Below, in pieces: positions 4,918 through 15,279 of a DNA stretch of 15,279 bases (position 1 is its first letter; every line of letters starts with the position of its first letter). Source of the stretch: Candidatus Hodarchaeota archaeon (GTDB lineage: Archaea; Asgardarchaeota; Heimdallarchaeia; Hodarchaeales; Hodarchaeaceae); contig JAEOSP010000660.1 in NCBI GenBank assembly GCA_016840305.1, positions 1 to 15,279 on the forward strand, in the 5' to 3' direction. Below the pieces are notes generated by a model, which ran no database searches, was not told where the DNA came from, and saw nothing but the letters and a program-made list of their open reading frames with translations. Made by a program: the position numbers and the translations under genes.

Positions 4918-7482
4918 GTGGTATTGGAAATAATGCAAGAAGATATCAAATTCCTCGCTTTCATTGACTCTACTTCACCTTTAATCAGTACCTTACTTCA
5001 AAACGAATTATTTCTGCAGAAAATTTCATCTCAAAATCATTTTGATTTAATATATAATTCTTTCAAGGTTAAATCAAAAAATAATGAAATAACTTTTCAT
5101 AATGAGATATCAAAGGTATTAGCTACGTTGATTTTTGACTATCTGTACATCGGTATTGTTACATTACGGGAAAACCATGATACAACAGATTTGATTTTAA
5201 GTATCCAAGAAAAAACGGGTCAAAATTATGGACATCAAAACCTAGAATCAGCTGAAAATTTGGTAAAATCATTTCTAAATGAGATTTTATACCAGATTAA
5301 GGAGAAGAATCCAGAAATCCCTCTCTTTCATAATCAAATTTTACCCATGACTCGAATAATATCATCCTTGGTCGAAGATTTCCAGATCTCAATGAAATTA
5401 TATGAATTTTTCATTCAACATTTTAAAGAGCCGATAAGCTATAATCAAATGAAAACACCTTACTATTTTGAACTTGGAATTCCATGGGAACATAAACAAC
5501 AATATGGTCAAGTATTTACACCAGTTAATGTCATTGATTTTATGTGTAAACAACTGATTTCAGAAGAAACATCATTAATTCTTGATCCGTCAGTTGGAAC
5601 TGGACTTTTCTTACTGGGAGCACTGAATTACTATCTAAAATCTGGTTTTACATCATTACATACTATTATCGGCATTGAGAAGGACCCAATTCTTGCTATT
5701 ATTTGTGAAAGCGCAATATTAGTTTATTGTAAGTTAAATTCGATTTCAACAATTGATTGTCAAATAATTAATGACAGTCTTTTCGATTGTGATAAGAGAT
5801 TAAGTCAAATACTTGATAAAAGCAAAGGTAATGGGGTAATTCTAATGAATCCTCCCTATACTAGACAGGAATTAATAACTAGTTCTGAAAAAATTAACAT
5901 GACAAAAAAGCTAGAATCAATACCCTTTTTCAATAAAAATAATGCTTTTTATTCTTTAATTAAGTTTTCAGGCCAATCTAGTTTGTATGTTTACTTTGTA
6001 ATATATATATCGGGTTTTTTACGTCCAAATGACCTTGTTGGTTTGATTATTCCTAATTCGTGGATGGATGTGAGGTATGGTGAGGTTCTAAGGACATTAT
6101 TTCTCGAACTATTTTCTATCCACTACATCATATCATCCAAGCTTGAAAAACTCATTCCAAGTGTTGATGTGAATACTTCAATCCTCTTCCTTCAGGTCAA
6201 GGAAAAGCCATTCAAGTTTTTATCAAAAGATTCAACACGAAAAGTGAATTTTGTAACGATTAACAGTCAAAATGATCTTACTAAAATAAATACCATTTTT
6301 AGAAGTACTAAGCGCCATTCTAAGATCCCAGGAATTCTTACAGAAGTTTCAGAGGCTTCATTGTCAAAGAATGCTAAGTGGGGGTTATTTCTTAAAGCTC
6401 CACCTTTTTTCTTCAAGTTAATCTCTAATATACAAGACAAATCTGTCAAACTTGGCTCTCAAGTGCTCATAAAACGGGGATTTACAAGTGGAGCAAACGC
6501 CTTTTTCTATTTAGGTAAACCAGGCAGAAGTAATAACCTCTTTCATTCAACTTATGATTCTGCTACTGGTAATCTAATATTGACCCCAAAGAATGATAAA
6601 ATAGTACAGGAATTTATTCATCAGCAATTTCCCAGAGATTCCTTAAAGTTTGAAATTGAGAAAGAATACTGGATGCATCCTGTCAATTCGCCAAATGAAA
6701 AAAGGGTGAACAATATTGAGTTTAAAACAGGTGAGAATACCAAATGGGTTCCAAATTATCTTATCAAATCCCCAAAAGAATTATCGACGTATGAGATTAC
6801 AAATGAAAGTGTAAATTTCATTGTATTATTAATACCTCAAGAAGAAAAAACAAAGCTTAAAGCTGGGATCCGAGAATATATAAGATGGGGAGAGAAATGG
6901 AACCCTGTGAAAGGGATAAAATACAACAAAAGAATAACGTGCGCTTCACGGAAATTTTGGTACGCAATATCTTCTTCTGAGTTCATGAATTTCCCTATAT
7001 TGTGTATGATGACAATCAATGATCGTTTTACATTTTTCTATAATCGGAATAATTATTTTTTTGATGCTAGATTATACGGAATACGCCTTATTTCTTCCAT
7101 GGTGGATATTCCCACGTTATTCTGTTTTCTAAACTCAATTTTCGTCTCTATACAGCTTGAGCTATTAGGGAGGACTAATCTCGGAGAAGGAGGATTAGAT
7201 GTCAAGGTTTATGAATACAATAATATAAAAATCTTTTTTTCGAGTGTTTTGGATAAAAATATGAAATTGGAGATTATGAACATTTTTAATCAAGTATTAA
7301 AAGAACACCCCCACTCTGTTATTGACGATATGGGGAATCTAGCAAGGGATTTACTTGATGCTTTTCTTGTTCAGCACGCACTTTTTTCTAAAGAAGATAC
7401 TGCTCAAATGAGAAAAGTACTGCAGAAGATTGTTCAAAACCGTCTTGATAAAGGTCGATCAGTTTCAAATCATAATATTTGA
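4918..7482 (+). CDS. Adenine-N6 DNA methyltransferase with C-terminal specificity region (HsdM / type IIG-like)
   Basis: Class I S-adenosylmethionine-dependent DNA methyltransferase of the gamma type, methylating adenine N6 in a specific DNA sequence. Residues 1-190 are helical with no nuclease motif seen. YGQVFTP (196-202) is the conserved entry motif, LDPSVGTG (222-229) is SAM-binding motif I, GIEKDP (252-257) the following acidic loop, and NPPY (311-314) catalytic motif IV. A later segment, LVGLIIPNSW, is the usual strand after the catalytic core. From about residue 515 (IKRGFTSGANAFFYLG) a target-recognition-like region begins, and GRTNLGEGGLDVKVYE near 749-764 is typical of the C-terminal end. 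The GTG at 4918 has no clear binding site; ATG at 4933 (residue 6), preceded by TTGGA, may be the true start. The gene overlaps the convergent methyltransferase gene by 18 bp. No restriction subunit is visible. Confidence 0.87.
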   Translation: MVLEIMQEDIKFLAFIDSTSPLISTLLQNELFLQKISSQNHFDLIYNSFKVKSKNNEITFHNEISKVLATLIFDYLYIGIVTLRENHDTTDLILSIQEKTGQNYGHQNLESAENLVKSFLNEILYQIKEKNPEIPLFHNQILPMTRIISSLVEDFQISMKLYEFFIQHFKEPISYNQMKTPYYFELGIPWEHKQQYGQVFTPVNVIDFMCKQLISEETSLILDPSVGTGLFLLGALNYYLKSGFTSLHTIIGIEKDPILAIICESAILVYCKLNSISTIDCQIINDSLFDCDKRLSQILDKSKGNGVILMNPPYTRQELITSSEKINMTKKLESIPFFNKNNAFYSLIKFSGQSSLYVYFVIYISGFLRPNDLVGLIIPNSWMDVRYGEVLRTLFLELFSIHYIISSKLEKLIPSVDVNTSILFLQVKEKPFKFLSKDSTRKVNFVTINSQNDLTKINTIFRSTKRHSKIPGILTEVSEASLSKNAKWGLFLKAPPFFFKLISNIQDKSVKLGSQVLIKRGFTSGANAFFYLGKPGRSNNLFHSTYDSATGNLILTPKNDKIVQEFIHQQFPRDSLKFEIEKEYWMHPVNSPNEKRVNNIEFKTGENTKWVPNYLIKSPKELSTYEITNESVNFIVLLIPQEEKTKLKAGIREYIRWGEKWNPVKGIKYNKRITCASRKFWYAISSSEFMNFPILCMMTINDRFTFFYNRNNYFFDARLYGIRLISSMVDIPTLFCFLNSIFVSIQLELLGRTNLGEGGLDVKVYEYNNIKIFFSSVLDKNMKLEIMNIFNQVLKEHPHSVIDDMGNLARDLLDAFLVQHALFSKEDTAQMRKVLQKIVQNRLDKGRSVSNHNI

Positions 7483-10074
7483 TTCTATTTGTTTGATCTC
7501 ATGATCATTCAGATTAAATAGTTCATAAACAATTTTATTCATTTCACGCGTTAACGGATTCCTTTCTCGTGTATGCTTAATGCTCTCTAAGCGTTTGGTA
7601 ATTTCACATAACTTTTTATATTCAGAGGTAGTTTTTTCAGGAATTACCAGTGGAAAGTTTTTGATTTGATGCGGATAAAAATCATATATACATCCTAAAT
7701 CCTTAAAGACGCTCTGAGCATAAAAAATTAATACATTAGAATTTAATAAACCTAGAAGAATGTACAAATAATCGTTCTCTGCATACTTTCTTTTAGGTAT
7801 GATCCAAGTAACATCCTTAGACGAAAGGGATCCTTCATAATCAATAGCAAAGCTATTAACCTTGGATTTGTAGGAACAGACAATCTTATTTTCTTCCCAT
7901 GGCATAGTTTTCCTCTCGTCCCCATCTCTCCATAAATAATAATTTGATACTCGACTTCGATTCAAAAGCAAATTTTTATTTTGATCCAAGTATTGAAGGA
8001 TTTTCTGTGATCTCTCGATTTCATATTGGCGAGATTTTGGAGCGTATAATACTTCCCGCCCTTCTCTTTTGATGAAGAATTGCTTAATCTCCTTTCCTTT
8101 AATCCAAGATCTATAATTAGCTAATTCTAAGTTTAAATATCTGGAAAAGAAATATGGATAGCTTGGAGCAAAAACCTTATCACATCCTGTTTCTATACCT
8201 TTACTAATCATAGCTATATCCTTTAATTTATGATTAGACGAAGATTTTATGTGATTGACCAATTCTAAGTTCTCTGAGTTCAAAATTATCCATTTTTCAG
8301 AATTTAATTTTGATTGAGGAAATTTAAATCCACTTCTTTGTTTCAAATCATCCTTGCGATATTTATAATACATAAAATCTTGATTGTTGATGAATTTTTG
8401 CTTCTTAAGAGAAATAAAGCATGTGTTGATTTTAGTATTTGAAAAAATTGGAATATCTGCGAAGTCATGAAGTTCTAATATCGTATGACCATTAATTAGT
8501 GAAGATCTGATTTTTTTTGCATACACACTCGTTTGAATATACTTTGGTAATATGAATCCAATTATCCCATGGTTAACAAGTAAAGATTTCATTCGTTCTA
8601 AGAAAAAATGAGATAGGTCATTATTACCTGTATATACAAATGGATAGAGTATCTTAAGTTTTAACCTTGTTTTCATAGGTAGATCTGTTAATGCGATGAA
8701 TGGAGGATTTCCAATAATAATATCAAACTTAGATGGGTTACGTGGGTCACACCAATGATAAACATCATCAAATATATACAAAACCATTGATTTTGCCTTG
8801 ATAAATTTCATGTCTGTGACAATACTTGTAAAAACAGCATATAACTGAGTTTCTTCATCTAGGGAGCTATCCGGTAATGAAAAATGAATTTTTGACTTAA
8901 AAGCATCATTTAAAGTGTTTTTATACTCATTCCAATTCTTAAAAGTCCCCTCTATTATAAAAAATTTGAATCCTTTCTGTGATTCAAATTCTCGAAAATC
9001 ACGATTCAATAAATCTATAACTTCATGGAAAACCGAGTGCGTTGGTAATTGATAGATAGCTAGTTTTTTCTGAAAATTTAAGTGGAAATCATTTGATAAC
9101 AGTTCTTTATTTATTTTAGTATTAGTGAGTGCTTCTGGAATTTGGAGATGACCTACTAAAGAATCGCCTGTGTTGATATTTGTATTTAATACCGTCAAAT
9201 TGGAAATTACACTGGATTCTTCTCCAATCAGCCATAATAAAAGTTTAATTTGTGTAATATAACATGCGATTTCATCTGTATCTATACCGTAAAGACTATT
9301 TTCCACGATACTCTTCTTTATCAATGTGCTTGAATTTTTTGATTTTTCACGAATAAAATTATCGTGAATCACATTACCTGTTGCGATAAGAAATACTCCT
9401 GTTCCAACTGCTGGATCCAAAACTTTTAATTTTTTATATGCGTTACTTCCTGACAACCCATTGTCTTCGTGTTCAAACCAATTAAATATTAGTTTTTCAG
9501 CTATCTGTTTAGCAATAAAATATGGGGTATACACTGTTCCTTTAGACTTGGTATCTTGTTCTATCTCATTTCGTAAAAGATAGGATATTTGATCAAAAAT
9601 ATCAAGTGTTATATACTTAGATGGAATTTCACTAGGAATAACGTGATTTTTATACCATCCAAATTCTTTAGAAAGGTATTCTGCACTTACAGCCCATGAA
9701 ATTTCTTTCTGAACTTTCGATTGATAAGCCTCACACATTCTTGGATTTCCTCCTAATTCCCCCAAACTTTGAAATATTGGCACTTGATTGCTTAACTCGG
9801 CAAGCAGACTATTTGGATCTAAAAAGCAGTCATAAACATCAAACCATGAGGTTAATTTTGAATTAACGACTTTTTTAATGAAATCTAAGCCAAGAAATAA
9901 GCTAGTTACAAAATTTACTATTAATATACTATTAAAAAAGGTGGTATATTCTTCATCCGAATTAAACTTCTGATCAACGACTTTTAACTCACTTATTAGT
10001 TTTTTTATCTCTTTTATTACCTCTAGTGACGGTTTTTTATTTTTTAGATTGAGCTGGTTCAAAAATAAAGACAA
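7465..10074 (-). CDS. Eco57I/TaqI-like adenine-N6 DNA methyltransferase (type IIG/PglX-like architecture)
   Basis: A second, clearly different gamma-type adenine DNA methyltransferase. Residues 1-175 are a helical N-terminal domain in which I find no convincing PD-(D/E)xK nuclease. GTVYTP (179-184) precedes the catalytic domain; LDPAVGTG (219-226) is SAM motif I, NSLYGIDTDEIA (259-270) the next motif, and DIIIGNPPF (451-459) is catalytic motif IV. The wide spacing between motifs I and IV, about 235 residues, is characteristic of Eco57I-type proteins. The end, from ISKGIETGCDKVFAP to LGLLNSNVLIFYAQ and FPLVIPE, matches the TaqI-like specificity domain layout. The start codon is TTG, preceded by TTGGAG at 8 nt. 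The gene lies 15 bp after the 129-aa gene, so the two are probably co-transcribed. Modification target and any restriction partner are unknown. Confidence 0.87.
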   Translation of the reverse strand: MSLFLNQLNLKNKKPSLEVIKEIKKLISELKVVDQKFNSDEEYTTFFNSILIVNFVTSLFLGLDFIKKVVNSKLTSWFDVYDCFLDPNSLLAELSNQVPIFQSLGELGGNPRMCEAYQSKVQKEISWAVSAEYLSKEFGWYKNHVIPSEIPSKYITLDIFDQISYLLRNEIEQDTKSKGTVYTPYFIAKQIAEKLIFNWFEHEDNGLSGSNAYKKLKVLDPAVGTGVFLIATGNVIHDNFIREKSKNSSTLIKKSIVENSLYGIDTDEIACYITQIKLLLWLIGEESSVISNLTVLNTNINTGDSLVGHLQIPEALTNTKINKELLSNDFHLNFQKKLAIYQLPTHSVFHEVIDLLNRDFREFESQKGFKFFIIEGTFKNWNEYKNTLNDAFKSKIHFSLPDSSLDEETQLYAVFTSIVTDMKFIKAKSMVLYIFDDVYHWCDPRNPSKFDIIIGNPPFIALTDLPMKTRLKLKILYPFVYTGNNDLSHFFLERMKSLLVNHGIIGFILPKYIQTSVYAKKIRSSLINGHTILELHDFADIPIFSNTKINTCFISLKKQKFINNQDFMYYKYRKDDLKQRSGFKFPQSKLNSEKWIILNSENLELVNHIKSSSNHKLKDIAMISKGIETGCDKVFAPSYPYFFSRYLNLELANYRSWIKGKEIKQFFIKREGREVLYAPKSRQYEIERSQKILQYLDQNKNLLLNRSRVSNYYLWRDGDERKTMPWEENKIVCSYKSKVNSFAIDYEGSLSSKDVTWIIPKRKYAENDYLYILLGLLNSNVLIFYAQSVFKDLGCIYDFYPHQIKNFPLVIPEKTTSEYKKLCEITKRLESIKHTRERNPLTREMNKIVYELFNLNDHEIKQIESNIMI

Positions 10075-10089
10075 TATGGGTCTCCAAGG

Positions 10090-10479
10090 TTAATTTTCAG
10101 AGTTATCTTCTTCTAATTCATCTTCACTAGAATTTTTTTTCCTCAATTTACTAAGAATTGATGTACCGGCTTCCTTCCATTTGCTTGGTTCATCTTCTTT
10201 AACAATTATATCTCCTTGCTCGATTAGAGCAATGAAAACAGCAGAAATATTTTCAGTTATCCATTTGTCTAATTCCTTTTCAGTAACCTTTGGAAAGGCT
10301 GAATTAGATTGAAGAGCTTGCTCAAATACCATTTTGTGTATACGACGAGTAGTATCTTCGCGTAATTCACGCCAAAGGTTCCGAATTAATCGTCTCTCTC
10401 TTACACGCATATCCTCGATTTTTAATAGCACTTTCCAGACATTTGAAGTTACATATAATGGTTCTGAATTGTCTTTCAT
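10090..10479 (-). CDS. Unrecognised small charged helical protein linked to the methyltransferase
   Basis: I do not recognise this 129-aa protein. It is highly charged and appears almost wholly helical, with an arginine-rich helix at residues 24-50 (RVRERRLIRNLWRELREDTT), a second helical region at 62-92, and an acidic, probably disordered C-terminus (SSEDELEEDNSEN). There are no cysteines and no membrane segment. The basic helix could contact nucleic acid, but no named fold is evident. ATG at 10479 follows a GCGGGAAATATGAA leader. Only 15 bp separate its stop from the TTG start of the 869-aa methyltransferase, so it is probably a functional partner: a specificity or accessory subunit, or a regulator. 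This role is inferred from position alone. Confidence 0.72.
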   Translation of the reverse strand: MKDNSEPLYVTSNVWKVLLKIEDMRVRERRLIRNLWRELREDTTRRIHKMVFEQALQSNSAFPKVTEKELDKWITENISAVFIALIEQGDIIVKEDEPSKWKEAGTSILSKLRKKNSSEDELEEDNSEN

Positions 10480-11265: not shown

Positions 11266-14200
11266 ATGTCAAGTTCAGAGTATCGCCGAACTTCTAATCC
11301 CGGCTATCGTACGTGGTTTGAATCTTTTCAGTACAATCAGCTGGTGACGTTACCTATTTTTATTCTTGATTTTGAGGCTACTAGTAGAAGGGAGGAGATA
11401 CTTGATTCATATTCTGATGATAATGATTATTCTGAAAAGGGTAAGAACTGGAATATTATCAATGGAATTCAGATATATTTCTTAGATGAACAGAATACTA
11501 AGCGAACTTCATTTTTAAGGCATGATCCATACTTTTATTTATTGTTGGAGAGTGGTTTGAATAAGAATCAAATTAATAGAATCATTGCTCAAATTCAAGA
11601 ATTAGGGGAGAAAAAAGTAAAGCACGTATCAAAACAAATCTGCCATGATGCCGCTGATTTGACTTTTCTTGCTGAAAAGGAGTTTATCAAAGTAACTGTT
11701 GATCATCCTGGATCTGTGCCTAATCTAAGAAAATTGTGTGAAAGTATTACAGGTATTATTGAATGGAGGGAAGCAGATGTACTATATAATCACAGAGTAG
11801 CAATTGACCACAATATTCGGGTCGGGAGATGGTACGAGGTTGAGATTAGTAGAGGTGAAATTCAAAAAATCTCTATGTTGATGAATAAAGCACCGCCTGA
11901 ACTGAGAATTTTAGCTTATGATATCGAAACCGTATTCGATATAACACGTGAACCTGATCCAAATAGAGACGCTATATCTATGGTATCACTATTCATGGGA
12001 GATACCAATTTTTTACTCATTAATGACCAAGTAGTTGAGACAAAGGATATTTCACAGCTAGAAATACTTTTAAAGAAAAAGGATAGTGAACACAATAAAC
12101 CATGGGTTGATTGGTGTAAATCTGGAGCAGAAATTCCTTCTTCTATGATTATTGAGCAGATTCCAGTAAAATTAGAGATTTTAAAAACAGAAAAAGGATT
12201 GCTACATAGATTCTACGAAATAATCGAGACGTTTAAGCCTGAGGTAATAGCTGACTTTTTCGGTGATCGTTTCGATATTCCATTCCTATCGGTTCGTTCC
12301 TCAAAGTATAATATCTCTTTTGAAGGACGGACAGGGTTTAAAATAAAATTCAAACAACAAACTGGTAATGAACCCAAACCAAAATTGACTGAGAATTATT
12401 CTCCAGCAAGTATTGATTCTGTTTCAGGTGCTGGAATAATTCATATAGATGCTTACTTATTCAATGAGAAGTACAGTTATCTTCCTAAGAAGGATTTAGG
12501 TCTTAAACCTAGCGTGGAGAAAAAATTAAAAATAATCCCTATAGGTAGAGAAGCACTTTTTGCGATTGAAGAAAATCCTGAAGATGCAGTTGGTTACGCT
12601 GCTTGTGATGGCTATATAACTCATCGTTACGTCAATGAGTTAGTGTTAGATTTCTTCACATCGATGGGTCAAATGTTTCCAGTTCCAGCGTCGGAATTAT
12701 TAACTCGTAGAGCAGGTTCTCTTGATGATTTACTAATTGATGCGGAAAATCACAAATTTAATATTGTTGGAAGACGTAGGGTGGAACAGGCCTTTGTTGA
12801 TTCTTTTTCCAAAAAAATTACTATTGATTCATTTGCTTATACTGGAGGGTTAGTTGAAGCAAGACGATCGGGAATTTTTCGGAGTGATATTCATACTGAA
12901 TACGGAATTGATAAGCAAGCTTTGAAAGAGATAAAAGGAATTGTTCGCCAAATAATTGTCAAGCATAGCAATAATACTGCTAAGAAGGAAATTAAAAACG
13001 AATTTGAGAGAAAGATTTTAACAAAGTTTGGTGATCTGTCTTTAGTTTATTCAGAAGATATTGATCAGCTCCTAAACAACTTTAATGGAGTTATGATAAA
13101 AAATGGAATTAATTCATCCGATCTAGAAGAAAAACATAATCAATTTCGACAGATATTAGAGGAAATTTCAAAAATCTATGTCAAAGACGTAGATAAGGTA
13201 ATTGAAGAAACTTTAAACCAAATAGATAACCTTATTGAGACTAAAGGATCAGTACAGTTACGTGGTGTTCATGTTGATGTTACATCCATGTATCCATCGC
13301 AAATTCGTCAATATAAATTACAACCATCTGGAATAGTCCCATTGAGTAAGTGTCGCGAATGTAAGTACGCTGAGAAGGACGATAGTTGTTATTTTGAGGG
13401 TGATTGGGTAATTAAGCTAACAGGTAGACGACCTTGTCGCTTCAGAGAAGAAGGTTCACGAATTTGTGAAAACACAAATTGCACACCGAAGGATGAATCA
13501 AATTGTGAGAATTATGAACCCGAGCAAGGTACAACTGGGAGAATTCAAGAAATCTTTACTTTTGATGGTAAAAGTGTCCAAACGTATGTTCTGAGGAAAA
13601 AAAGGGGACTAGTAAAGATTCCGATTAATAAATCATACCTCAGTACAATGTCTGATTATGACGTTTTTTCTGCAGTGAAAAATTGGTTAGAAAAAGCAGT
13701 TAAAGCTACTCAAATTACCTGTAACCTTGATAAAAATCATTTTGATACATTTGAAGATCAACCTGATCAGTTTAAGTTACCTCCAAACACTTTTCTAAGC
13801 TTAGATGTAAGAACAAAGAAAATTACTGTACTAATTTCTGTTAAATCAAGAGTATGTCAAAAAGCTTTTAATTTTGTTTCTCGCATAATGGATGACTTCT
13901 TCAATACAAGAGTTAAACATAAATTTGAAGCTCAAAGATTAAACCAGATAATAAAGCAGAAAACTAAACTAAACCAACCTGTACACCCAGATATGCTTAG
14001 ACAACAGAAATTCCATGATAGTACACAGCTGGGAATGAAAGTTCCCCTAAACTCTATCTATGGCTTACTTGGCATGAAAGCAGGGGTGAGAAATGCAAGT
14101 GCTCCATGTGCAGGGATTACGACCAAATTATCTGCAGATTTAATTAGTTGGGCTGCTGATCAATTAGAAAAAATTGGTATGGTGACTGAGTTGGATACCG

Positions 14201-15279
14201 ATGGGGTTTGGATGTGGGTTCCTCGTCAATTTCCGTTAGATTTTTCTGTGAATTTAGTTAACCCCTCTGAATCTGAGCAAGTAATCGAATTTAAGGAAAG
14301 TTTAATTGATAAAATATTGAATGAAAAGGTTAATACGGCTGGTTTTGTAAATGATAATTATTGGTCTAATGATGGGTCGAAAATTGAGCAGATTAGCAAG
14401 AGCCTGATTCAATTTGAACAAGATGGCCCCTATGATTTTCAATTCATAATGGGGAAGAAAAAGTATATCGTTTATAATTATGATATTGAAAGTGGACAAT
14501 GGGATGAAAAAGAGATCATAGGACTGGAGTCAAAAAGAGCTGATTTCTCAAAATTACAGAAACTCTTCCAAGAAGAGCTCATTAAAGGGTATCTTGAAAA
14601 TTACAATTTAGAGAACCCAGTGTCACTCTATGAGATCTATCAAAATGCGATTAGAGTTTCAGATGAAATAAGGAAACAAGTGGAAGAGGGCAAATTAGAT
14701 CATTCATACTTCATTAAACCTAAAGCACTTAATAAACCATTAAATGAGTACAAATCAAAGCTCCCTCAGGTTACTGCAGCTCATATATTGAAAGATCTTG
14801 GTTTCTCAATTGAACCGGGGATCCGTATCCAAATGATTAATATAATTGGTAATCACGCGATTCCATCTCAAGTATTTGATCTTGATTTCAAGAAGGTTAA
14901 GTCAGTATTTAATAAGTATGGAATATGTACACTTAGTTTTATGCTGAATGAGATAACCTCAATTGCAGATATTCTCAAATTAATTGATAAAAAGCAGTAT
15001 TTAAGTGATATTTTCGGGCCAGGAAGAATTTTTGATAGAATGATAAATTATCCTATGAAGATTCAGGAAGTAAATACTGAGTCAAGGAAAACTTTAGTAA
15101 TTGGGGATTTAGAAGAAGTAGAGGAGAATCAATTTACAGAAGGTTCAATTACTTCGAACACCGATATTGAAAAAGAAAACCTGCCAAAAACTCCCCTAAT
15201 ACCAGTGAAAATTATCAAACATAAAATCACTACTCAAAAAAAGCAGAAATTAAGTAAACGAAGGGGAAAAATAAAAACT
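11266..15279 (+). CDS. B-family DNA polymerase related to the catalytic half of eukaryotic Pol epsilon, partial (3' end outside window)
   Basis: DNA-directed DNA polymerase with 3'-5' proofreading exonuclease; 1338 codons, still open at the window edge. N-terminal signature DVLYNHRVAID...VGRWY (171-190) parallels DVPYHVR...ID in Pol epsilon. Exonuclease motifs are intact: DIE (219-221), FGDRFD (332-337, D337) and Y444xxxD448. TGGLVEARRSGIFRSD (526-541) closely matches the epsilon GGHVEALESGVFRSD. Motif A is DVTSMYPS (671-678), then LQPSGIV; motif B is K925...LNSIYG (928-933); motif C is ELDTDGVW (975-982), the epsilon form instead of YGDTDS; KKKY ends at 1067. C696-x2-C699-x8-C708 has the spacing of yeast Pol2 iron-sulfur ligands, and C724, C734, C739 and C747 follow. 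The tail (about 1313-1338) is strongly basic. An in-frame TGA lies just before the ATG, fixing the start. All catalytic acids are present, so it should be active. Confidence 0.95.
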   Translation, partial: MSSSEYRRTSNPGYRTWFESFQYNQLVTLPIFILDFEATSRREEILDSYSDDNDYSEKGKNWNIINGIQIYFLDEQNTKRTSFLRHDPYFYLLLESGLNKNQINRIIAQIQELGEKKVKHVSKQICHDAADLTFLAEKEFIKVTVDHPGSVPNLRKLCESITGIIEWREADVLYNHRVAIDHNIRVGRWYEVEISRGEIQKISMLMNKAPPELRILAYDIETVFDITREPDPNRDAISMVSLFMGDTNFLLINDQVVETKDISQLEILLKKKDSEHNKPWVDWCKSGAEIPSSMIIEQIPVKLEILKTEKGLLHRFYEIIETFKPEVIADFFGDRFDIPFLSVRSSKYNISFEGRTGFKIKFKQQTGNEPKPKLTENYSPASIDSVSGAGIIHIDAYLFNEKYSYLPKKDLGLKPSVEKKLKIIPIGREALFAIEENPEDAVGYAACDGYITHRYVNELVLDFFTSMGQMFPVPASELLTRRAGSLDDLLIDAENHKFNIVGRRRVEQAFVDSFSKKITIDSFAYTGGLVEARRSGIFRSDIHTEYGIDKQALKEIKGIVRQIIVKHSNNTAKKEIKNEFERKILTKFGDLSLVYSEDIDQLLNNFNGVMIKNGINSSDLEEKHNQFRQILEEISKIYVKDVDKVIEETLNQIDNLIETKGSVQLRGVHVDVTSMYPSQIRQYKLQPSGIVPLSKCRECKYAEKDDSCYFEGDWVIKLTGRRPCRFREEGSRICENTNCTPKDESNCENYEPEQGTTGRIQEIFTFDGKSVQTYVLRKKRGLVKIPINKSYLSTMSDYDVFSAVKNWLEKAVKATQITCNLDKNHFDTFEDQPDQFKLPPNTFLSLDVRTKKITVLISVKSRVCQKAFNFVSRIMDDFFNTRVKHKFEAQRLNQIIKQKTKLNQPVHPDMLRQQKFHDSTQLGMKVPLNSIYGLLGMKAGVRNASAPCAGITTKLSADLISWAADQLEKIGMVTELDTDGVWMWVPRQFPLDFSVNLVNPSESEQVIEFKESLIDKILNEKVNTAGFVNDNYWSNDGSKIEQISKSLIQFEQDGPYDFQFIMGKKKYIVYNYDIESGQWDEKEIIGLESKRADFSKLQKLFQEELIKGYLENYNLENPVSLYEIYQNAIRVSDEIRKQVEEGKLDHSYFIKPKALNKPLNEYKSKLPQVTAAHILKDLGFSIEPGIRIQMINIIGNHAIPSQVFDLDFKKVKSVFNKYGICTLSFMLNEITSIADILKLIDKKQYLSDIFGPGRIFDRMINYPMKIQEVNTESRKTLVIGDLEEVEENQFTEGSITSNTDIEKENLPKTPLIPVKIIKHKITTQKKQKLSKRRGKIKT

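Follow-up and report, generated by a model that had tools for sequence, protein, structure and literature searches.

An epsilon-like (B10) DNA polymerase of Hodarchaeales with the cysteines of the Pol epsilon iron-sulfur site, and its possible take-over of the catalytic role of PolD

B10 is a known family of DNA polymerases, akin to eukaryotic Pol epsilon and, in the parts of four papers that we covered, reported as confined to Hodarchaeales among the Asgard archaea (PMC7544198, PMC10307638, PMC12395588, PMC12198294); the name given to it in Hodarchaeales by Eme et al. 2023 (PMC10307638) is 'epsilon DNA polymerase'. Kazlauskas et al. 2020 (PMC7544198), in the text available to us, counted B10 in two metagenome-assembled genomes (MAGs), described one C-terminal metal-binding motif for it, and stated in the introduction that the P-domain and CysX occur in no family-B polymerase (PolB) except Pol epsilon. 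Their main text also mentions inactive DP1/DP2 subunits of PolD in two MAGs, so that part of what follows may be known. We analyzed a stretch of 15,279 nucleotides (the window) from a Candidatus Hodarchaeota archaeon (assembly GCA_016840305.1, contig JAEOSP010000660.1, forward strand), at whose end lies a gene for a further member of the B10 family. As judged from sequence, this protein would be an active, iron-sulfur (Fe-S) replicase, resembling the N-terminal half of Pol epsilon, that took over the catalytic role of PolD, a reading to which we give a probability of about 0.72. The features of the gene are as follows.

11266..15279, + strand: epsilon-like (B10) family-B DNA polymerase gene; ATG start, 1338 amino acids (aa) visible, 3' end cut by the window
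11767..12498, + strand: predicted 3'-5' proofreading exonuclease domain, residues 168-411 (Pfam DNA_pol_B_exo1, E 1.3e-24)
11767..11808, + strand: epsilon-type N-terminal block READVLYNHRVAID, residues 168-181, aligned to yeast Pol2
12844..12888, + strand: epsilon-type block GGLVEARRSGIFRSD, residues 527-541, aligned to yeast Pol2
13276..13329, + strand: polymerase motif A (D671) followed by LQPS, DVTSMYPSQIRQYKLQPS, residues 671-688 (pattern match and family alignment)
13351..13389, + strand: CysX cysteines 1-3 (C696, C699, C708), predicted [4Fe-4S] ligands, aligned with yeast C665, C668 and C677
13435..13506, + strand: second B10 cysteine quartet (C724, C734, C739, C747), putative extra metal site (family alignment)
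13849..13863, + strand: CysX cysteine 4 (C864), aligned with yeast C763
14020..14067, + strand: polymerase motif B (K925, N929, Y932; family alignment)
14188..14211, + strand: polymerase motif C ELDTDGVW (D977, D979), residues 975-982 (family alignment and pattern match)

The Pfam polymerase domain was also matched in the window protein (E 8.5e-12). The protein is incomplete, because its closest full-length relatives (P0001-P0003, 82-83% identity) run to 1462-1471 aa; about 130 C-terminal residues are missing. A search across 5.8 billion proteins gave 68 matches. P0001-P0063 form one family with 37-90% identity across the matched part, fragments included, and its named members are mostly Candidatus Hodarchaeales, Hodarchaeota and Heimdallarchaeota, with a few Thorarchaeota, Hermodarchaeota and Promethearchaeota; P0064-P0068 are eukaryotic Pol epsilon and other epsilon-type proteins. 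We aligned the window protein, P0001-P0063 and nine frames from genomes into a family alignment of 73 rows, which includes partly identical genes, fragments and intein-bearing proteins.

The sequence-only reading of this gene had pointed to four blocks of Pol epsilon type (the N-terminal block, SGxFRSD, motif A with LQPS, and an ELDTDGxW motif C), had held that ordinary archaeal PolBs differ there, and had proposed kinship with Pol2/POLE within a family perhaps already noted in Asgards. These proposals were supported, the known family being B10. All four blocks were located in the frame, and their patterns matched 65, 66, 69 and 61 of the 73 family rows (fragments and overlapping records among them), 2, 2, 3 and 4 of 4 rows of eukaryotic Pol epsilon, and 2, 0, 4 and 5 of 5 rows of a metagenomic group, eX, described below. 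Because the patterns are strict, a miss does not equal the loss of a block. None of 12 ordinary Asgard PolBs matched any of the four, and all 12 had a [YF][GA]DTDS motif C, which was found in 0/73 B10 rows; conversely, the CysX pattern occurred in 69/73 B10 rows and in none of the 12 PolBs. The window protein thus does not show the hallmarks of ordinary archaeal PolB1/PolB3, which are this motif C and the lack of CysX. Its motif C begins with a glutamate (E975), as in 69 of the 71 family rows with a letter there (ExDTDG), and this E-type motif C, like the C-terminal metal motif of its full-length relatives, is shared with B10 as described in the portion of Kazlauskas et al. that we covered.

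Searches, fold and tree gave the same answer. When the window protein was compared with PDB sequences by phmmer, yeast Pol2 was matched at E 5.2e-59, human POLE at 4e-54 to 7e-51, and the best archaeal PolB at 1.1e-14; Pol alpha, delta and zeta were not among the 59 PDB sequences matched at the cut-off of 0.001. With a profile of 27 family members, Pol epsilon scored 358 bits, archaeal PolB 117 and Pol delta 49.6 among the best 60 of 126 matches. The predicted fold of the window protein is that of the Pol2 core. A careful tree, built on 21 rows, set the cluster of B10, Pol epsilon and eX apart from six Asgard PolBs at 100/100. This tree dropped 16 rows (8/16 B10, P0190 and P0195 of five eX, and 6/12 PolBs), its sampling lay outside the alpha, delta, zeta, G3, B8 and B9 polymerases, and it carried warnings of long PolB and epsilon-type branches and of five rows with an odd letter make-up. 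Membership in a PolB1, PolB3 or Pol delta-like clade, with the likeness to Pol epsilon limited to a few motifs, is very improbable in view of the 100/100 split, the margins in profile and fold, and the lack of the CysX pattern in the Asgard PolBs.

The catalytic residues of both the exonuclease and the polymerase are present, as are four cysteines that align with those of the Fe-S site. No substitution was seen in the 73 rows, gaps aside, at ExoI D219/E221, ExoII D337, ExoIII Y444/D448 or motif A; among rows with a letter, motifs B and C were conserved in 69-70 of 71 and the KKY lysine in 63/66. The yeast residues C665, C668, C677 and C763, which we take to be the ligands of the Fe-S cluster of Pol epsilon, correspond to C696 (71/71 rows with a letter), C699 (71/71), C708 (72/72) and C864 (70/72), and all four were invariant in a 49-row alignment (A1) of 44 B10 and 5 other epsilon-type proteins. 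The CysX cysteines are thus almost invariant in B10, which contradicts the printed statement confining CysX to Pol epsilon. Beyond what was described for the two MAGs, B10 carries the second quartet (70/70, 70/70, 70/70 and 71/71 rows with a letter), which lies outside the columns invariant across B10 and the other epsilon-type rows. A C-terminal CxxC...CxxC ribbon, in the region beyond the window end, was found in 51 of 54 full-length B10 rows. Behind the core, a loose pattern for a PIP-like motif matched 42 of the same 54, a weak match among overlapping rows and without a shuffled control; part of these matches look spurious, and P0047 and P0049 were scanned whole, as their core end was not located. 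Intein and homing-endonuclease domains were seen in the B10 proteins P0008, P0031 and P0035, and very long B10 frames in two loci (L014, L015).

B10 thus has in common with the N-terminal half of Pol2/POLE its motifs, the four CysX cysteines and the predicted core fold, but differs from eukaryotic Pol epsilon in its sequence (about 20-28% identity), in a longer insert with the extra cysteine quartet, and in its C-terminus. On the P-domain, which raises processivity in Pol epsilon, the alignment shows only that the insert between CysX cysteines 3 and 4 has 155 residues in the window protein and 85 in yeast. No sign was seen of the dead C-terminal polymerase half of eukaryotic Pol epsilon with its two zinc modules: the intein-free full-length relatives have 1416-1599 aa, and DUF1744, zf_DPOE_2 and zf-DPOE of Pfam, all present in P0064, were not found in P0013 and P0061, the two B10 proteins scanned.

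We then examined 227 genomes from the phylum to which G002, the source of the Hodarchaeum mangrovi locus, belongs. Forty of them matched the B10 protein P0013 at E 0.001, and 13 matched the family itself (G001, G002, G043-G049, G051-G054); the remaining matches were weak and of the type that ordinary PolBs give. Matches of G005-G007 at the epsilon-like N-terminal block were rejected, since these proteins are PolBs that have YGDTDS as motif C and a pair of zinc ribbons at the C-terminus. These three genomes (loci L055, L056, L057) are without any DP2 match, and the DP1 of G005 and G006 has an altered nuclease motif; this set is perhaps the delta-like complex reported for Baldrarchaeia in a review that we covered in part.

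PolD (DP1-DP2) is the usual archaeal replicase, and its DP2 is still encoded in the 13 B10 genomes, in a divergent form minus the first catalytic aspartate. The metal triad of DP2 consists of N954, D956 and D958 (PMC10721889, as far as covered). Twelve of the 13 B10 genomes were matched by a model of the DP2 N-terminus (E 2e-7 to 7e-46), as were 19 of 24 B10-less genomes in the search (E 1e-103 to 1e-114), and no match came from the other five (G004-G007, G050); the DP2 of G052 was recovered with the catalytic model. Where the usual stretch reads [ND]CDGDED, the B10 genomes have NCNGDID (G051, G045, G002, G001, G052), NCSGNID (G044), SCNGxxD (G043, G046-G049) or TANGDID (G054), and in G053 the stretch is ill-aligned and without the motif. 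DGDED was intact in all 45 B10-less genomes that were read of the 199 with a DP2 match, a sample of 9 plus 36 in which 30 of the 36 were best-scoring loci and not a random draw; two more, G106 and G175, had no readable motif. There was one catalytic-model match per B10 genome, so that a second, intact DP2 was not found in them. B10 and the dead DP2, as we call this type, lie on one chromosome-sized contig in G001 and in G051, and false binning therefore does not explain these two genomes.

A database search with DP2 agreed with this picture. It gave 312 protein matches, and among the best 120, 46 (P0069-P0114) were near the dead DP2. Of these, 45 have lost D956 (to N in 43, S in 1, K in 1) and 14 have lost D958 (to V or A in 13, to N in 1). 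In the remaining 74 of the 120, D956 and D958 were invariant. R920, H891, H1072, D1076 and N1080 (L116 numbering) were kept in at least 97% of these 74 and in 0% of the dead rows. A DP1 was recovered from 10 B10 genomes, with no match in the other three, G048, G053 and G054; N450 was replaced by Glu in all 10 that were read and H451 was lost in one, whereas 17 of 19 others had Asn at 450, a count from which one misassigned row (G003a) was excluded. Several intact DP2 genes (L113, L117-L119) carry intein-like inserts close to their catalytic stretch.

The dead DP2 is maintained under purifying selection where this could be tested. Complete frames of 1108-1130 codons were found in only eight of the 13 genomes; G053 shows 1194 codons. 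By a Nei-Gojobori script, the ratio of nonsynonymous to synonymous substitution rates (dN/dS) was 0.07-0.11 for six pairs of dead DP2s and 0.27 for the closest one, and 0.065 and 0.08 in two pairs of active DP2s, a third pair being saturated; the pairs share genomes, and dS was 1.1-3.6 except in the closest pair. The C-terminus of DP2 is its DP1-binding end. The Zn-III cysteines near it were kept in 44/44 rows, and one cysteine of the middle zinc site was lost in all. In a DP2 tree all dead DP2s fell on one side of a 100/100 branch, although G053 and G054 were very long rows of unsure placement. Hence the 13 B10 genomes are not independent, and there was probably one ancestral inactivation of DP2. 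The organism of the window would itself have a dead DP2, to judge from its relatives.

Taken together, these data point to the following mechanism. B10 would be an active, proofreading polymerase with an Fe-S cluster, perhaps tethered to PCNA by the PIP-like motif behind its core, for which the match in the relatives is weak and lies outside the window. It would have taken over the catalytic role of PolD in its lineage, DP2 being kept minus the first catalytic aspartate. The assembly of DP1 and DP2 may now serve to keep the polymerase, primase or helicase at the fork, a task that in eukaryotes falls to the B-subunit and the dead C-terminal half of Pol epsilon. That dead half, which in yeast is the essential one of the two, interacts with the CMG helicase (PMC7544198, in the text covered); a scaffold role of a dead replicase is therefore plausible. 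In the wider form of this idea, PolD was catalytically retired and kept as a DP1-DP2 scaffold while an Fe-S epsilon-type PolB does the work in one Asgard lineage. The labor would be divided as in eukaryotic Pol epsilon (an active N-terminal half, a dead half and a dead B-subunit), before or parallel to eukaryotes, and with two genes instead of one fusion; we hold this wider form only tentatively, as slightly less probable than an even chance.

Several observations weigh against a take-over by B10. POL2_thumb (PF22634) of Pfam was not matched in the window protein, P0013 or P0061. In G001 the B10 frame is masked in part, and only residues 410-1434 of the query find a match in it; the dead DP2 of G001 is a partial one of 868 aa with a TGA upstream, and contig ends truncate those of G046, G052 and G054. 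The association of B10 with dead DP2 may rest on a single event, and the DP1s that were read keep most of their nuclease ligands. Other PolBs (Pfam PF00136) occur in all 13 B10 genomes, as frames of roughly 660-1290 aa and a single fragment of 325 aa, so B10 is not the sole candidate replicase. B10 could then be an accessory or repair polymerase in cells whose chromosome is replicated by an ordinary PolB and whose PolD decayed for unrelated reasons; the genomes are, moreover, incomplete. Yet other PolBs are present in 6/6 searched B10-less genomes with an intact DP2 motif as well (G055-G058, G012, G016) and therefore do not track the death of PolD, whereas B10 tracks it in 13/13 and has a complete set of exonuclease, polymerase and CysX residues, which makes an accessory role unlikely.

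It could also be that the PolD of these genomes still polymerizes with an altered metal site and that nothing was taken over. The triad reads N-N-D, with N954 and D958 kept, in 28 of the 46 dead DP2s, and one member of the group, P0080 (1095 aa), is the only one to have the full triad (NCDGDID), so that residual PolD activity is possible there; the strong purifying selection would fit as well. Against this stand the invariance of D956 in the 74 other DP2s, the further loss of D958 in 14 of the 46, and the complete absence of the five other conserved residues from the dead rows, P0080 included, and we regard continued polymerization by PolD as quite improbable, more so than an accessory role of B10. 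The rival on the origin of the gene, that B10 is tied to a pool of mobile epsilon-type polymerases, has to be taken more seriously and falls not far short of an even chance. It is favored by the confinement of B10 to 13 of 227 genomes of the phylum and by eX, whose host is unassigned and which in the tree is nearer to the eukaryotic enzyme than B10 is. It is opposed by the monophyly of B10 with the eukaryotes outside, which argues that B10 is not a recent import from eukaryotes, by a conserved gene neighborhood in 10 of 13 loci (L066 of G054 and L067 of G053 share none of it), and by the lack of viral relatives in IMG/VR (window protein, P0067 and eX alignment as queries) and in GenBank phages (P0067 as the only query), in scans that reach close relatives only.

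The group eX consists of eight metagenomic epsilon-like proteins (P0067, P0189-P0195) with no host assigned in the sources, three of them with intein domains. It lies in the same clade as B10 and resembles it in having CysX in 5/5 aligned rows and a single polymerase module (1352-1453 aa without inteins), but its cysteine quartet differs, and P0067 (75 bits) and P0194 (56.8) match POL2_thumb. The contigs that carry P0193 and P0067 measure 242 kb and 69 kb. At E 1e-20 the eX profile matched the same 13 of the 227 genomes only, through their B10 frames, and eX itself was not found in these genomes. In the careful tree B10, the eukaryotic enzymes and eX were each monophyletic at 100/100, and the eukaryotic enzymes grouped with eX at 98/95; a quick tree of 37 rows gave this grouping an SH-like approximate likelihood ratio test (SH-aLRT) value of 94, with warnings of meeting long branches. 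In the approximately unbiased (AU) test, joining the eukaryotic enzymes with B10 without eX cost 9.7 log units (p 0.03), and joining eX with B10 gave p 0.03. The rejection is weak, with long branches present, and the p of 0.03 is less strict than it appears because the groups were defined once the quick tree had been seen. The eX group matters for the debate over whether Pol epsilon descends from Hodarchaeales or spread by lateral transfer.

How Pol epsilon arose, Fe-S cluster and dead second half included, is still to be settled in accounts of eukaryogenesis. The presence of the CysX cysteines in archaeal B10 suggests a cluster older than the eukaryotes, and it would predate them if the scaffold reading is true. 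The lineage-wide loss of the PolD aspartate beside an epsilon-type polymerase is a naturally occurring, testable example of a replicase being replaced while the old enzyme is retained. In the literature passages that we covered, we met no mention of CysX in archaeal B10, the second cysteine quartet, a lineage-wide dead DP2 under selection, or eX; this coverage did not extend to the supplement of PMC7544198 (Figures S15-S16 on DP1/DP2) or to Feng et al. 2025 (Nat Ecol Evol).

The surroundings of the polymerase gene were compared among 13 loci; in two of them, the window and L067, the sequence stops at or within that gene and the downstream side is out of view. Upstream of it, the window contains these features.

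4918-7482, + strand, and 7465-10074, - strand: two large N6-adenine methyltransferase-like genes (Eco57I, N6_Mtase; one with TaqI_C)
10090..10479, - strand: conserved, syntenic neighbor of 129 aa, found close to the polymerase gene in 9 of the 13 loci

The setting of the polymerase gene looks chromosomal and stable in most loci. The upstream gene order of the window is mostly shared with G047 (L062), which is without one of the methyltransferase-like genes. The 129-aa neighbor had no match in Pfam, PADLOC or NCBIfam, and its model was all-helical at low confidence (pLDDT 64). Genes for a membrane protein (about 670-770 aa) and a TPR protein come after the polymerase gene in 10 of the 13 loci. 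L066 and L067 share neither these two nor the 129-aa gene nor the methyltransferase-like families. The 670-770-aa protein, apparently membrane-bound, is encoded on the same strand directly downstream of the polymerase (L060:12162-14417 and homologues in 10 loci); it was dropped as a candidate polymerase subunit, with no Pfam match for two homologues and no PDB match for one. One of the two methyltransferase-like families is represented beside the polymerase gene in 10 of the 13 loci and the other in 8, which is unusual for a restriction-modification pair.

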